54,891 bases of DNA, from positions 3,342,086 to 3,396,976 of the forward strand of contig LS998015.1 of the NCBI GenBank assembly GCA_900498245.1, written 5' to 3'. Both the position numbers and the translations under genes were made by a program. This document shows positions 39,788 to 50,690 of the stretch, one piece after another (position 1 is the first letter of the stretch; each line of letters begins with the position of its first letter). The DNA comes from Candidatus Zixiibacteriota bacterium (GTDB taxonomy: Bacteria; Zixibacteria; MSB-5A5; GN15; PGXB01). The notes under the pieces are model-generated. The model was not told the origin of the DNA. It worked only from the letters and a program-made list of their open reading frames with translations, and did no database searches.

Positions 39788-40056
39788 GACCTCAAAGTCG
39801 GAAAACTAAAGCCTTTCAAATTTAATACAGGCGGCACGATTTTCATAATAGTTTATAAGACGAATTGGCCATGTAATGGTTGCATTTTGAATTAGGGAAA
39901 TTCGAATTATTATTATAATGTCCCTTTTAAATCCATAATCCCAACAATTTGCTTTTCTTTTAAATAAAAAATCCTAAATTAGGGGAAGAGTTTACCCGAT
40001 AACTGCAGCATACTTTTAATTTTTATATCGAATTGATGGCAAAATACAGGTTGTCA

Positions 40057-41313
40057 ATGACAAAAAACGAGCGGCAAAGGTCATATCTGCTGAAACCTAC
40101 AATATTAGCCATTATTATTGCAGTAGTGTTATCTATGCATCCGGCCGGCTCCGCACGGGCTATGGATTTGCGGGGGAGTATTTTTTCCGAATTTTATGGC
40201 TATAAGGAACCGGGGTTGAATCATTACCGTCCTTATGCCGGATTGAACGCCGATTTTGGCCTCTGGCGCGGAAAGAGAAGCCGTACTCTTGATTTATATA
40301 CCAATTTCCGCTGGACCACCGATCTGAAAACCAAGCTGGCCACCGACCCGCAGATTTTCTTTTATAATACTTACCTTCATCTCGCCAATGTTCCATCGCG
40401 AAGCCATTTTTACCTGGGTCGGCAATTCGTATATAACGGGGCCGGGAGTCTCCTGATGGATGGAATCAGGGCCAAGTATGTCATTGTTCCGCAGGCTCAA
40501 ATCGAACTGTTCGGAGGCAGCGCGGTTTCTTCGGCGGAACCGAAAAAAATTCGAAAAATCGCCGATTTCGGCTCGTTCGGCGGAAGACTTTCCATAAATC
40601 CGGACCGATCAACGAGAATCGGCTTAAATTTGCTCAGCCGCCGACTTGACGGATACAGTGAAATAAAACGGGCGGCTGTCGATATCGAACAAGTTGTCGC
40701 ACAATGGCGTTTTTTCGGGCGAGCCGCTTACAATCTCAATCGCTCCAGTATGGCGGAACTTCTGGGGAGAATTTCCTTTCAGCCGTATCGCTGGTATTTT
40801 GAGGGGGAATTCCTCTGGCGTGAACCGTCCGTTTCGGACAATACTATATTCGGCATAATCAATTACAATCGATATCGCGAATTCCGACTGAACGGCCGGC
40901 GTACCATAATAAAAAATTTGAATTTTGACGCCCGCTTAATGGGAACAATATTTGATAACGATAACGCCTGGAATCTCCAAATCGGATTTATCGGGGCCTG
41001 GTACAACATTGGCTGGCGTCATCAAACCGGTTACGCCGGCATCAATGACGGCCTCTTTCTCTTATTGAACCTTCGACTCAATGCCCGATGGGAAACCTAT
41101 GCCTCGGCCAATCTCGGTCGCTATAAGGTTCAGAAAGAACAGCCGGACCGAAACGACTCTTATTCTTCACAGGCCGGAATTCTTTGGCGGCCGGCAAACG
41201 GACTTACGGCCCGAGTCGAAGGGCAGTATCTCAAAAATGCCGTCATGACCGAGGAAACCCGTATCTATGTCAAACTCGCCAAGGATTTTTCATTTGGTCG
41301 CGGGGGGAGATAA
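40057..41313 (+). CDS. Outer-membrane beta-barrel protein preceding multiheme cytochromes
   Basis: A protein of about 418 residues with a signal peptide (hydrophobic LAIIIAVVLSM, cleaved near SARA-M) and then alternating aromatic and polar strands, such as SRTLDLYTNFRW, YWEGEFLWRE-like and FLLLNLRLNARWETYA, typical of a barrel of 16 or more strands. It ends DFSFGRGGR without the usual C-terminal Phe. AGG lies 6 bases before the chosen ATG; an ATG 21 bases upstream is possible. The cytochrome gene starts 6 bases after the stop, so it is likely the porin sheath of a cytochrome conduit. Homology to MtrB or Ext proteins is not evident by eye. Confidence 0.78.
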   Translation: MTKNERQRSYLLKPTILAIIIAVVLSMHPAGSARAMDLRGSIFSEFYGYKEPGLNHYRPYAGLNADFGLWRGKRSRTLDLYTNFRWTTDLKTKLATDPQIFFYNTYLHLANVPSRSHFYLGRQFVYNGAGSLLMDGIRAKYVIVPQAQIELFGGSAVSSAEPKKIRKIADFGSFGGRLSINPDRSTRIGLNLLSRRLDGYSEIKRAAVDIEQVVAQWRFFGRAAYNLNRSSMAELLGRISFQPYRWYFEGEFLWREPSVSDNTIFGIINYNRYREFRLNGRRTIIKNLNFDARLMGTIFDNDNAWNLQIGFIGAWYNIGWRHQTGYAGINDGLFLLLNLRLNARWETYASANLGRYKVQKEQPDRNDSYSSQAGILWRPANGLTARVEGQYLKNAVMTEETRIYVKLAKDFSFGRGGR

Positions 41314-41319
41314 TTTGCG

Positions 41320-42375
41320 ATGATAACAGGTATTCTGCTCAGTATATGGCTCGTAGCGGGGACCTCCGCCTTTCCCGTATATAATACGCCTGCCAATTTG
41401 GCGTCTCTCGATGATATAATTTTCTCCCACTCCCTGCACGCCGACAGCGCCGGAGTTGATTGTGAATTGTGCCACGGTACGGTATATAACAGCACGGCCG
41501 CCGCGGATGTCAATCTGCCGAAGATGAGCGTTTGCGGCAGTTGTCATGATGCCGTCAAAGACAGCACCCGTTGCGGCATGTGCCACCATAACGTGAAAAA
41601 ACCGTTTGGGTTCGGAAAAGTCGAGCGTTTACTAATTTTCAGCCACAAAGCACATCTATCCCGCGGTCAGGATTGTTCCCGTTGTCACTCTGATCTCGGC
41701 AAGCCGGGAACCGCCTTTCTGGAGCATTTGCCGGACATGAATAGATGCTACGATTGTCATGATGGCAAAAAATACCGCAACGAATGCTCCTTGTGCCATG
41801 CCGACAAAATAACCCTGAGCGATATTCACCCCTCCGACTGGCGCCACAACCACGGCGATCGGGCCACAAACAACCGCGAGTGGTGCAATATTTGCCACCG
41901 GCAGGAGTCGTATTGCACCGATTGCCATCGCGGCGATAATATCACAGGTCGAATTCATGATTTGAATTATCAATTCACTCACGGCCTCGACGCCCAGAGC
42001 AAATCGGCCGATTGCCGCAAGTGCCACGAAACAAAATCATTCTGCGATAATTGCCATAATGCCGGTCTGCGGATGCCCTTGAATCATTCCACCGTTTCCT
42101 GGCGCATTGAACACGGCGCGGCCGCCCGGAACGATGTCGAAAACTGCGCCTCCTGCCATGACAATTCCGACCCGACCTGCGCCCGGGGAGGGTGCCACCG
42201 CGATTTTGATGGTATCAAAGGAACCGATCCGCGAATACATATTGACAGCGGTCCCCTATCATCGCATGGGCCGTGGCATGAAGATGAGAATTACTATTGC
42301 TATCAATGTCATCTGAACACCCACCAGGCCGGACAGGGCTTCTGCGGCTACTGCCACGGCGCCGAGAGACGCTGA
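41320..42375 (+). CDS. Periplasmic multiheme c-type cytochrome (about 14 hemes)
   Basis: A 351-residue protein with a short signal peptide (MITGILLSIWLVAGTSAF) and thirteen CxxCH motifs plus one CX4CH (CARGGCH near residue 289). Covalent heme at each would give about one heme per 25 residues, at the dense end for the class. Many distal histidines precede the motifs (FSHSLHAD, FSHKAHL, FTHGLD), as in bis-His hemes. It is one base from the following cytochrome gene and 6 from the barrel gene. GGGGGGAG lies 9 bases before the ATG. Role: electron relay, probably across the periplasm or through the barrel. Confidence 0.93.
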   Translation: MITGILLSIWLVAGTSAFPVYNTPANLASLDDIIFSHSLHADSAGVDCELCHGTVYNSTAAADVNLPKMSVCGSCHDAVKDSTRCGMCHHNVKKPFGFGKVERLLIFSHKAHLSRGQDCSRCHSDLGKPGTAFLEHLPDMNRCYDCHDGKKYRNECSLCHADKITLSDIHPSDWRHNHGDRATNNREWCNICHRQESYCTDCHRGDNITGRIHDLNYQFTHGLDAQSKSADCRKCHETKSFCDNCHNAGLRMPLNHSTVSWRIEHGAAARNDVENCASCHDNSDPTCARGGCHRDFDGIKGTDPRIHIDSGPLSSHGPWHEDENYYCYQCHLNTHQAGQGFCGYCHGAERR

Positions 42376-42376
42376 C

Positions 42377-43909
42377 ATGAGAAAAGCAAAAATGATCATT
42401 TCGGCCAAGAAAGCACTCCGATTCGGCGGGCTCGTCATTCTCGGGCTCATTATTGCCGCTATCGCCGGCTGCAGCAATGACCGCAACCCCTCCTCTCTTC
42501 CCAGCACTCACCCTGCCGCCTGGATGGAAATATCATCGCAGGACTTTCACGGTAAAGTGGTTCTGACCAACGGCACGCAAAGTTGCATAAAATGTCATGG
42601 AAGCGATTTCAACGGCGGATTGGTCAATGTCTCCTGCATTTATTGTCATCAGAACAGCACCGATATGTGTGTTCACTGTCACGGCGGATATAACGCCAAT
42701 GATAAATCCGGTGCTCCGCCCTATGGCCTAAGAGGAGAAATCTCGGATAGTACCCTTGCGGTCGGCGCCCATACTATTCACCTGCACGGTTCCTGGATGG
42801 CCGGCGGTATGCCCTGCAATAGTTGCCACCATGTTCCGATATTTGTTTCCGACTCCGCCCATCTGGATTATGCTCCGAACGATGCTCATCCGCACACCGA
42901 TTCCATTGCGGAAATAACCTGGGGAGGTATAAGTGATTTGAGCGGGGGTGCCTCCTGGAGCCGTTCCGACAGCAGTTGCGCCGCCACTTATTGTCACGGC
43001 AATTTTGCCGGGGGCAAAAGCGGCAACAAACCCAATTGGACGAAGAAGAATCAGGCCAATTGCGGCTCCTGCCATGACTTCGGCGCCGACCCGGCCCAGC
43101 TTCTCTGGAAGCATTATTTTCATGTGGCCGCGGCGAGTCTGAATTGCGCCGACTGCCATGCCGCCACGGTTGATACATTTCTCAATTTTATCGACTCATC
43201 TTTACATGTCAACGGCGTTCCCGACACGCTCACGAGGGATGTCTCTATCTGCAATAAGTGCCACGGGCAAGGTGCCAATCAGTGCGTTTATTGCCACGGC
43301 GGTGTCGATAATCAGACCGGGGCTCCGCCCAAGGGTTTGCGGGGTGAAATTGCGACCACTACCCTGGCCGTGGGAACGCATACCGTTCATCTGGAGGGAC
43401 GAGTCATTTCTGACGGTATTCCGTGCGCCAGTTGTCATATTGTTCCGGCGACCGTCACATCACCCGGTCATTATGATGTTGACTCCGTTGCCGAAATTAC
43501 CTGGGGCGGGTTCAGCAATTTGAACGGCGGAGCCGCCTGGGACAGGAATTCGGCCGCCTGCGCTTCCACATATTGTCACGGCAATTTCTCCGGTGGTATC
43601 AGCACTACCCCTCATTGGGACACAAATGAGCAGGCGACGTGCGGGTCGTGCCACGATATCGGCAGTAACCCGGCGGCGCTTCTGGGTCGCCATCAGCAAC
43701 ATGTCACCGAAGAAAGCATCGCCTGCTATCAATGTCATGCCGCCACGGTCAATAGTTCAAATGCTATTACCGGGCCGGGGGCTCATATCGACGGCGTCTT
43801 TACCGTATCCTTCTGGAACGGCCAGGGATCATACAATAATACCACTCACCAGTGCTCCGGCCCCGGCGGGTGCCACGGTTCGGAAAACTGGTATTCCGGC
43901 GGCGATTAG
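42377..43909 (+). CDS. Multiheme cytochrome lipoprotein with internal duplication (Geobacter CxxxxCH/CxxCH type)
   Basis: A 510-residue lipoprotein with a clear lipobox (IAAIAGCSN, Cys at about residue 32). It has eleven CxxCH, two CX4CH (CAATYCH and CASTYCH) and one possible CX5CH (CSGPGGCH) at the C-terminus. Residues about 95-260 and 310-480 are a tandem duplication, each containing GAPP.GLRGEI, TLAVG.HT.HL, AEITWGG, TYCHGNF and CGSCHD. The CX4CH/CX2CH pattern matches the family first described in Geobacter sulfurreducens. Lipid anchoring suggests the outer membrane and perhaps surface exposure, as for OmcB-like terminal cytochromes. Confidence 0.92.
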   Translation: MRKAKMIISAKKALRFGGLVILGLIIAAIAGCSNDRNPSSLPSTHPAAWMEISSQDFHGKVVLTNGTQSCIKCHGSDFNGGLVNVSCIYCHQNSTDMCVHCHGGYNANDKSGAPPYGLRGEISDSTLAVGAHTIHLHGSWMAGGMPCNSCHHVPIFVSDSAHLDYAPNDAHPHTDSIAEITWGGISDLSGGASWSRSDSSCAATYCHGNFAGGKSGNKPNWTKKNQANCGSCHDFGADPAQLLWKHYFHVAAASLNCADCHAATVDTFLNFIDSSLHVNGVPDTLTRDVSICNKCHGQGANQCVYCHGGVDNQTGAPPKGLRGEIATTTLAVGTHTVHLEGRVISDGIPCASCHIVPATVTSPGHYDVDSVAEITWGGFSNLNGGAAWDRNSAACASTYCHGNFSGGISTTPHWDTNEQATCGSCHDIGSNPAALLGRHQQHVTEESIACYQCHAATVNSSNAITGPGAHIDGVFTVSFWNGQGSYNNTTHQCSGPGGCHGSENWYSGGD

Positions 43910-43972: not shown

Positions 43973-44296
43973 CTATTCTTTTGCACGGCGCGGCCGCCAG
44001 AGAAATCTTTCCAGATCAATGGTGTCATTCAGACCGAAGACTATTCCCTCTTTCTCCAGTAAGGCCCGCTGAAGTTCGTACCCGTTTCCTCGCGGCAAGG
44101 ATAATTTCCCCCGGCTGTTGATGACCCGGTGCCACGGCAGTCTCTCCTTGTCGCTTGAAGTGTGCAAAATTCTGACGACCTGTCGCGCTCCCCGGGGATC
44201 CCCGGCCAGGGCGGCGATGTGACCATAGGTGGCAATTTTCCCGCGAGGAATTCTCTTGATAATTTTAATGATGCGTTCACTATAAGCGGCAGGCAT
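43973..44296 (-). CDS. Alkyltransferase-like protein (MGMT fold, active-site Cys replaced)
   Basis: A 107-residue protein with the MGMT C-terminal DNA-binding fold. RGKIATYGHIAALAGDPRGARQV is the helix-turn-helix with the Arg finger, and the active-site motif PCHRV is PWHRV here. Loss of the acceptor Cys defines alkyltransferase-like (ATL) proteins, which bind O6-alkylguanine and hand it to nucleotide excision repair. Length is typical for ATLs. It ends 16 bases from the LolA-like gene upstream on the same strand. Confidence 0.92.
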   Translation of the reverse strand: MPAAYSERIIKIIKRIPRGKIATYGHIAALAGDPRGARQVVRILHTSSDKERLPWHRVINSRGKLSLPRGNGYELQRALLEKEGIVFGLNDTIDLERFLWRPRRAKE

Positions 44297-49567: not shown

Positions 49568-50563
49568 TCAAAACCGCTTCTGATATATATGGCAGTAGGG
49601 CTGCTTTCCGGTGTGCTCGTAATAATCCTGATGATATTTTTCGGCGTCCCAAAATTTTCCCGCCGGGGCCAGTTTGGTGACCACTTTGTAGCCCTTATCT
49701 TTTAATATCGAAATAAGTTTCTCGGCCGTCTGTTTCTGGGCCTCGCTGGCATAGAAAATTTCCGAACGGTACTGATCGCCGACATCCGGGCCCTGACGAT
49801 CCAGCTGGGTTGGGTCATGAATTTCGAAAAAGCGCCGGGCCAGAGTTTCATAACTCGTCTGAGCGGGGTCAAAAATCAGTTCGACGGTTTCCGCGTAGCC
49901 GGTAGTATCGCTGCAGACCTGCTCATAGGTGGGATTAGGTATATGCCCCCCCATATAACCGACCTTGGCCGAAATCACTCCCTTCTCATTTTGAAGCATA
50001 TATTCCGTTCCCCAGAAACATCCCCCGGCAAAATAGGCCGTCTCGGTTTTCACTTCTGCAGAAGCCGGAATGAAATTCAGTGAAATTGAATTGGCGCAAT
50101 AGCGGGTATTTTTCGATGTCAGATGCTCCCCGACAAAAACGTGTCCGATATGAGCCCCGCAGCGGGCACAGGTTATCTCCATTCGTTCACCATCGGCATC
50201 AAGGGTCCTCTTTATTGCCCCGGGGATTTCATCGTCAAAACTGGGCCAACCGCAGCCGGCGTCAAATTTATCACTGGAACGAAACAGTGGCGCCCCGCAC
50301 TGTTTGCAGACATAGGTCCCGGCGGCGGTGGTTTTGTAATATTTGCCCGTGAAAGGCGCCTCCGTTCCCTTATAGATAATTACCCGTTCTTCTTCAGGAG
50401 TCAGTTTATTCAGTGTCATACCGCTTTCCTTATTGGATTCTGTTTTATTCTGTACTGTAGCACTTTTCGACATCATTACGCTCGGAAAGAAACCGAGCCA
50501 CAGCGCCAAGATGGATACTACAGGAAGTACTGCATAAATTACGGATTTTCTCCGGAATGTCAT
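49568..50563 (-). CDS. msrBA: Bifunctional peptide methionine sulfoxide reductase MsrB-MsrA with membrane anchor
   Basis: A 331-residue fusion in the order MsrB (about 60-180) then MsrA (about 185-331). MsrB has the zinc pairs CKQC and CARC, GWPSF, and the catalytic Cys in RYCANSISLNF. MsrA has GGCFWGTEY with its nucleophile and DPTQLDRQG. The N-terminus is a hydrophobic segment (about residues 9-29), so the enzyme faces the periplasm or is secreted. It repairs both methionine sulfoxide epimers in oxidised proteins. The ATG at 50563 has GAGGAG 10 bases upstream; a longer open frame is not supported. Confidence 0.93.
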   Translation of the reverse strand: MTFRRKSVIYAVLPVVSILALWLGFFPSVMMSKSATVQNKTESNKESGMTLNKLTPEEERVIIYKGTEAPFTGKYYKTTAAGTYVCKQCGAPLFRSSDKFDAGCGWPSFDDEIPGAIKRTLDADGERMEITCARCGAHIGHVFVGEHLTSKNTRYCANSISLNFIPASAEVKTETAYFAGGCFWGTEYMLQNEKGVISAKVGYMGGHIPNPTYEQVCSDTTGYAETVELIFDPAQTSYETLARRFFEIHDPTQLDRQGPDVGDQYRSEIFYASEAQKQTAEKLISILKDKGYKVVTKLAPAGKFWDAEKYHQDYYEHTGKQPYCHIYQKRF

Positions 50564-50690
50564 GGGGCCTTTTCTCCTCAAGTACGGTGTTACCCGGTTT
50601 AAAACCGATTTTATTATGCAAAACACCGATCGCCGGGCCGGAGTTCCCTTGCCTGAGAGGCGGCGATTTGCCGCTTTATTCCCTGATTAT

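Follow-up and report, generated by a model that had tools for sequence, protein, structure and literature searches.

A predicted outer-membrane electron conduit in Zixibacteria: a fixed barrel–cytochrome core with an exchangeable surface cytochrome

Three adjacent genes of a Candidatus Zixiibacteriota bacterium very probably encode an outer-membrane electron conduit, in which a fixed core of sheath and wire would be completed by an exchangeable end at the cell surface. The genes occupy positions 40057 to 43909 of a stretch of 54,891 nucleotides (hereafter the window) that corresponds to positions 3342086-3396976 of the host genome, itself a single contig of 3.5 Mb. We favor a conduit, as did the first-pass annotation of this DNA, because a barrel gene and a 14-heme cytochrome gene are linked throughout the phylum, because a lipoprotein cytochrome follows them, and because a quinol-oxidizing complex is encoded in the same row of genes in some relatives. 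The features are as follows (ORF, open reading frame; aa, amino acids):

40057 (ATG; alternative upstream TTG at 40033) to 41313, plus strand: outer-membrane β-barrel, proposed sheath; ORF of 418 aa with a signal peptide
41320 to 42375, plus strand: secreted 14-heme c-type cytochrome, proposed wire, lying within or beneath the barrel; 351 aa, from motif count
42377 to 43909, plus strand: lipoprotein multiheme cytochrome, proposed cell-surface terminal; 510 aa, from motif count and lipobox
42584 to 43159, plus strand: lipoprotein module 1, seven motifs (2222422), motif positions 70-261 of the protein
43250 to 43738, plus strand: lipoprotein module 2, six motifs (222422), motif positions 292-454 of the protein

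The ORF coordinates agree with the order and spacing that had been annotated: the genes lie head to tail, all on the plus strand, with intergenic gaps of 6 and 1 bases. A scripted count likewise returned the annotated heme motifs, namely 13 CxxCH and one CX4CH in the 351-aa protein, and 11 CxxCH, two CX4CH and one CX5CH in the 510-aa protein. When the same residues were shuffled 5,000 times, CxxCH occurred on average 0.18 times (maximum 3) in the former and 0.11 times (maximum 2) in the latter; the real counts are far above these values, and therefore cannot be ascribed to chance. The 351-aa cytochrome carries a signal peptide and no lipobox, whereas the lipobox of the 510-aa protein (IAG-C32, with Ser at +2) can be read directly in its sequence, as expected for the lipoprotein that had been annotated here.

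The association of barrel and 14-heme cytochrome extends well beyond the window. Of 132 Zixibacteria genomes, 34 have a match to our barrel profile (23 among the 78 of high quality). The 14-heme cytochrome has full-length relatives, some of them clipped by contig ends, in 30 genomes, every one of which also has the barrel; among the 132 genomes, none that lacks the barrel contains a full-length relative of the cytochrome. The four barrel-positive genomes without a full-length cytochrome comprise one in which the contig ends (G027), one with a barrel fragment (G012), and two with weak matches (G035, G120). In all 30 fetched loci that have sequence past the barrel, the cytochrome follows as the next gene on the same strand, usually at a distance of no more than tens of bases; this tally includes two loci (L065 and L068) whose genes are interrupted by stops or runs of N. 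Although loci linked to the barrel supplied the cytochrome profile, the search of whole genomes could still have caught unlinked full-length relatives; it caught none. Only the sister genome G001 has the same genes on either side of the cassette; elsewhere these differ from family to family, which argues that the linkage of barrel and cytochrome is under selection. An outer-membrane barrel gene beside a gene for a secreted multiheme cytochrome, an arrangement kept in 30 genomes, is the gene signature of the porin–cytochrome conduit class: barrel and 14-heme cytochrome form a fixed core, and the proposed surface end is exchangeable.

One genome suggests that the cassette can move. G130, a member of family f19, holds a copy typical of its own family plus a second, three-gene copy that bears a lipoprotein with 68 heme motifs. 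This second copy nests within the clade of families f1, f2 and f4, which belong to another order, and it does so in the barrel tree (support of 99/95 with its neighbors) as well as in the cytochrome tree (87/91 for the clade); since both trees agree on this placement, the cassette probably moved into G130 as a unit. Zixibacteria are uncultured and are encountered repeatedly in sediments and at subsurface sites; that they take part in iron cycling is suspected on the basis of gene lists compiled with Geobacter and Shewanella models. A cassette with a defined, fixed core would offer a marker that might escape such models.

The first gene was annotated as a β-barrel, and the AlphaFold2 prediction concurs: the model is an empty barrel of 22 strands with a mean predicted local distance difference test (pLDDT) score of 84. 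The protein matches no family in Pfam or NCBIfam, and its profile yielded nothing meaningful against the sequences of solved structures. A search with the predicted structure recovered outer-membrane barrels as the top matches (TonB receptors, ushers and porins), the best being VIA (Z 20.6; root-mean-square deviation 3.3 over 324 residues). The model has no plug domain and yet is the size of the plugged barrels of TonB receptors, so that, as modeled, it leaves space for a slender wire. Of its 44 most conserved residues, 26 face the lumen and 8 face the lipid.

We reject the possibility that this barrel is MtrB, in accord with the absence of resemblance noted by eye in the first-pass annotation. 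PF11854 (MtrB_PioB) has no match in the host genome, and an hhalign comparison of the barrel with three true MtrB proteins of Zixibacteria gave a probability of 0.7%. The search itself works: genuine MtrA–MtrB pairs, with 10 motifs and 732-736 aa respectively, were identified in G067, G068 and G069 (L098, L099 and L100), where PF11854 matches reach 4e-112, the value obtained in G067, our positive control. No MtrC adjoins these pairs in the stretch seen. G067 and G068 carry both true MtrAB and the present cassette. MtrB is also absent among the structural matches listed for the barrel, although absence there does not exclude a likeness to MtrB.

The proposed wire is more readily classified. The 14-heme cytochrome matches Pfam Cytochrome_C7 (3.7e-16), and its profile finds 3ov0 as the nearest solved structure (2.6e-27), which we take to be the dodecaheme wire GSU1996, as well as 3ouq; by these sequence matches it is a member of the cytochrome c7/c3 superfamily. 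Full-length relatives keep 12 to 14 motifs. We also considered a decaheme cytochrome of the MtrA/DmsE type and rejected it: the protein has 14 motifs, and its match to the MtrA of Zixibacteria is limited to 46 columns around two heme motifs.

The lipoprotein shows a different pattern of conservation. Its motifs follow the order 2222422-222422-5 (each digit being the number of residues between the two cysteines), and TIGR01904, a Geobacter CxxxxCH...CxxCH domain, matches it in two stretches (1.1e-19; 70 bits against a curated cut-off of 27) and is found nowhere else in the host genome. Its profile found nothing meaningful among the sequences of solved structures. Complete homologs consist of 2222422, then n repeats of 222422, then a terminal CX4-7CH, so that the total number of motifs is 7 + 6n + 1, with a unit of about 192 residues. 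We observed n=1 (14 motifs; G000, G001, G034, G072 and G085), n=2 (20 motifs; G018, G053 and G080), n=3 (26 motifs; G011, G033 and G042) and n=10 (68 motifs; G130). The last of these is an ORF of 2,252 aa (L060:255-7013, minus strand) that adjoins barrel and 14-heme genes of the same kinds as in the window; its repeats are spaced by 192 residues (191 once), and the units are only 58 to 80% identical, which argues that the array is not a fresh duplication introduced by assembly. Since 85 motifs (PMC5566968) and 86 motifs (PMC12133095) are already known in other bacteria, 68 is not a record; it is the stepwise series that is notable. Elsewhere the third slot is filled differently: G067 and G068 have a shortened relative with 8 to 9 motifs, in families f12 and f19 unrelated lipoprotein cytochromes are encoded upstream of the pair in L063 (10 motifs) and downstream of it in L072 (8 motifs), and no lipoprotein cytochrome was seen beside the pair in the loci of family f16.

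We hypothesize that the 22-strand barrel acts as an insulating sheath into which the exported 14-heme cytochrome threads or docks, and so would conduct electrons across the membrane. The lipoprotein, anchored in the outer membrane by its lipid and facing outward, would exchange electrons with extracellular acceptors such as minerals or partner cells; this surface cytochrome appears to be exchangeable and to grow by six-heme modules. Electrons would come from the quinone pool by way of inner-membrane quinol oxidases encoded elsewhere (the NapC/NirT seven-heme protein and the Rieske cluster described below) and then of periplasmic cytochromes. More tentatively, we entertain a stronger form of this proposal: that the conduit is a type of its own, its barrel unrelated to those of MtrB, OmbB and Ext, and that its surface cytochrome works as a tethered heme wire, made of one chain and adjustable in length, with a constant seven-heme head and one-heme tail separated by 1, 2, 3 or 10 units of six hemes each (14, 20, 26 or 68 hemes). 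If this were so, a single polypeptide, and not a polymer, would span the gap to the acceptor. The lipoproteins with one, two, three or ten units provide a natural length series with which to relate the length of the wire to extracellular electron transfer.

Genes that could feed the conduit were found in two settings. In family f19 (L071, L074 and L075), the genes directly before that of the barrel encode a Rieske protein, a nine-heme cytochrome and a cytochrome b (Pfam matches on the L071 set: Rieske, 2.2e-14; cytochrome b, 1.8e-56). In the host genome, which encodes many further multiheme cytochromes, a NapC/NirT-type seven-heme protein of 504 aa is encoded at 1.4185-1.4229 Mb (L119:570-4999) together with a Rieske protein and a nine-heme cytochrome, away from the conduit; we regard the three as candidate quinol oxidases that supply it. 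The 504-aa protein is reminiscent of Geobacter ImcH.

Several observations weigh against the conduit, or at least withhold support from it. The resemblance of the modeled barrel to outer-membrane barrels in general speaks neither for nor against such a function; the excess of conservation at lumen-facing over lipid-facing positions, taken overall, is marginal (permutation p 0.06); the AlphaFold2 model of the 14-heme cytochrome, built without hemes from 25 sequences, is too poor to use (pLDDT 50); and the lipobox is the sole pointer to exposure of the lipoprotein at the surface. One could ask if the barrel serves as an ordinary porin for solutes, with cytochromes that store electrons in the periplasm and outer membrane or that belong to a periplasmic reductase. 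In structure the barrel does best match ordinary porins, ushers and TonB receptors, and when 13 relatives of the barrel were scanned singly, one of the stray, weak matches that emerged was to an Opr porin (8e-4). We nevertheless consider this explanation very improbable: barrel and 14-heme cytochrome are never apart save at a contig end, in a fragment or in weak matches, the cassette has no catalytic reductase domain, and the core cytochrome stays near 14 motifs while the lipoprotein varies. The alternative that the conduit runs inward, drawing electrons from Fe(II) or from a partner cell as MtoAB/PioAB do, seems to us unlikely, if less so. In family f16, and in some of the f19 loci, the barrel–cytochrome pair stands without the modular lipoprotein, which is reminiscent of MtoAB and PioAB, systems that have no extracellular cytochrome (PMC5566968). 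Yet the NapC/NirT seven-heme cytochrome and the Rieske cluster of the host genome suit the oxidation of quinol, and a surface lipoprotein cytochrome is part of most complete cassettes in the order to which the host belongs; the most likely direction of electron flow is outward, in respiration.

A more searching question is whether the conduit is a diverged member of a described Geobacter type (the OmbB, ExtB/ExtE or ExtI porin families), and hence not new; we regard this as a realistic possibility that falls somewhat short of an even chance. Porin–cytochrome operons homologous to those of Geobacter have been reported in Zixibacteria by the authors of FeGenie (PMC7005843), so that the suggestion of a new type in the first-pass annotation is secured only in part: the barrel is not MtrB, but conduits of the Geobacter kind have a precedent in this phylum. 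In addition, mtrAB has been listed in Zixibacteria (PMC9769843); in the literature we searched, no paper describes the present cassette or its ladder of repeats. OmbB- and Ext-type porins are, like ours, barrels encoded beside multiheme cytochromes (PMC6148476), and the TIGR01904 domain of the lipoprotein points toward Geobacter too. The Pcc cluster OmbB-OmaB-OmcB has the same gene order of porin, periplasmic cytochrome and outer-membrane cytochrome; its 8 and 12 hemes in OmaB and OmcB (PMC4245776), in contrast to the 14 and 14 motifs here, set it apart by heme count. The barrel has no curated family match, although no library that was searched is known to include an OmbB model. The Geobacter clusters ExtABCD, ExtEFG and ExtHIJKL likewise encode a barrel together with multiheme cytochromes of both the periplasmic and the lipoprotein kind (12 hemes in ExtA and in ExtG; PMC6148476), and they differ in the number and order of their genes.

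In its proposed mode of action the cassette resembles Mtr conduits as much as those of the Pcc and Ext kinds. MtrCAB, MtoAB and PioAB share with the cassette a barrel and a periplasmic multiheme wire encoded side by side, and MtrCAB a lipid-anchored multiheme cytochrome as well; however, MtrB is a PF11854 protein of about 730 aa with 26 strands in Shewanella, as compared with 418 aa and 22 predicted strands here, and their wire has 10 hemes rather than 14. PCC3 of Fe(II) oxidizers (He et al. 2017, PMC5566968) also pairs a porin with periplasmic and extracellular cytochromes that are built from repeats and vary widely in heme count, up to 85 sites; its porins reach 42 predicted strands, as opposed to 22 in our barrel, and are accompanied by an adjacent inner-membrane protein, whereas the window, like most loci, has no fourth linked gene of that kind. 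GSU1996-type c7 wires and TIGR01904 (GSu_C4xC__C2xCH) resemble the core cytochrome, through 3ov0 and 3ouq, and the lipoprotein, respectively, but they are cytochrome domain families that are not bound to this barrel family.

As to the distribution of the cassette, the nearest relative of the barrel in the collection of named genomes belongs to an uncultured Zixibacteria metagenome-assembled genome (81% identical), and one scan of that collection for the cassette outside Zixibacteria returned just one contig, from a sister genus within Zixibacteria. An origin in a phage or plasmid was rejected, given that the barrel has no match in phages or plasmids, the lipoprotein none in plasmids, and the 14-heme cytochrome only partial, c3-type matches in plasmids and no relative in viral contigs. 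A scan for promoters and terminators gave matches barely above those in shuffled sequence and was not used.

We also noted other clusters of multiheme cytochromes. Near 966-976 kb of the host genome (L122:4295-13904), cytochromes with 7, 16 and 26 motifs accompany an exported protein of 714 aa, possibly a further barrel, and in G011 (L018) a similar-looking set of genes with 7, 17 and 16 motifs lies directly upstream of the conduit. In G035 (L078:6621-12055), cytochromes with 27 and 20 motifs adjoin a protein of 527 aa that the barrel profile matches weakly (1.5e-5); this group may be a different type of conduit. Within the window, a small ORF on the minus strand (43973-44296) converges on the lipoprotein gene, 63 bases beyond it, and looks by eye like an alkyltransferase-like DNA repair protein; it is kept in the sister genome (L015). 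Farther along, also on the minus strand, the ORF at 49568-50626 resembles by eye a fused MsrB-MsrA methionine sulfoxide reductase.

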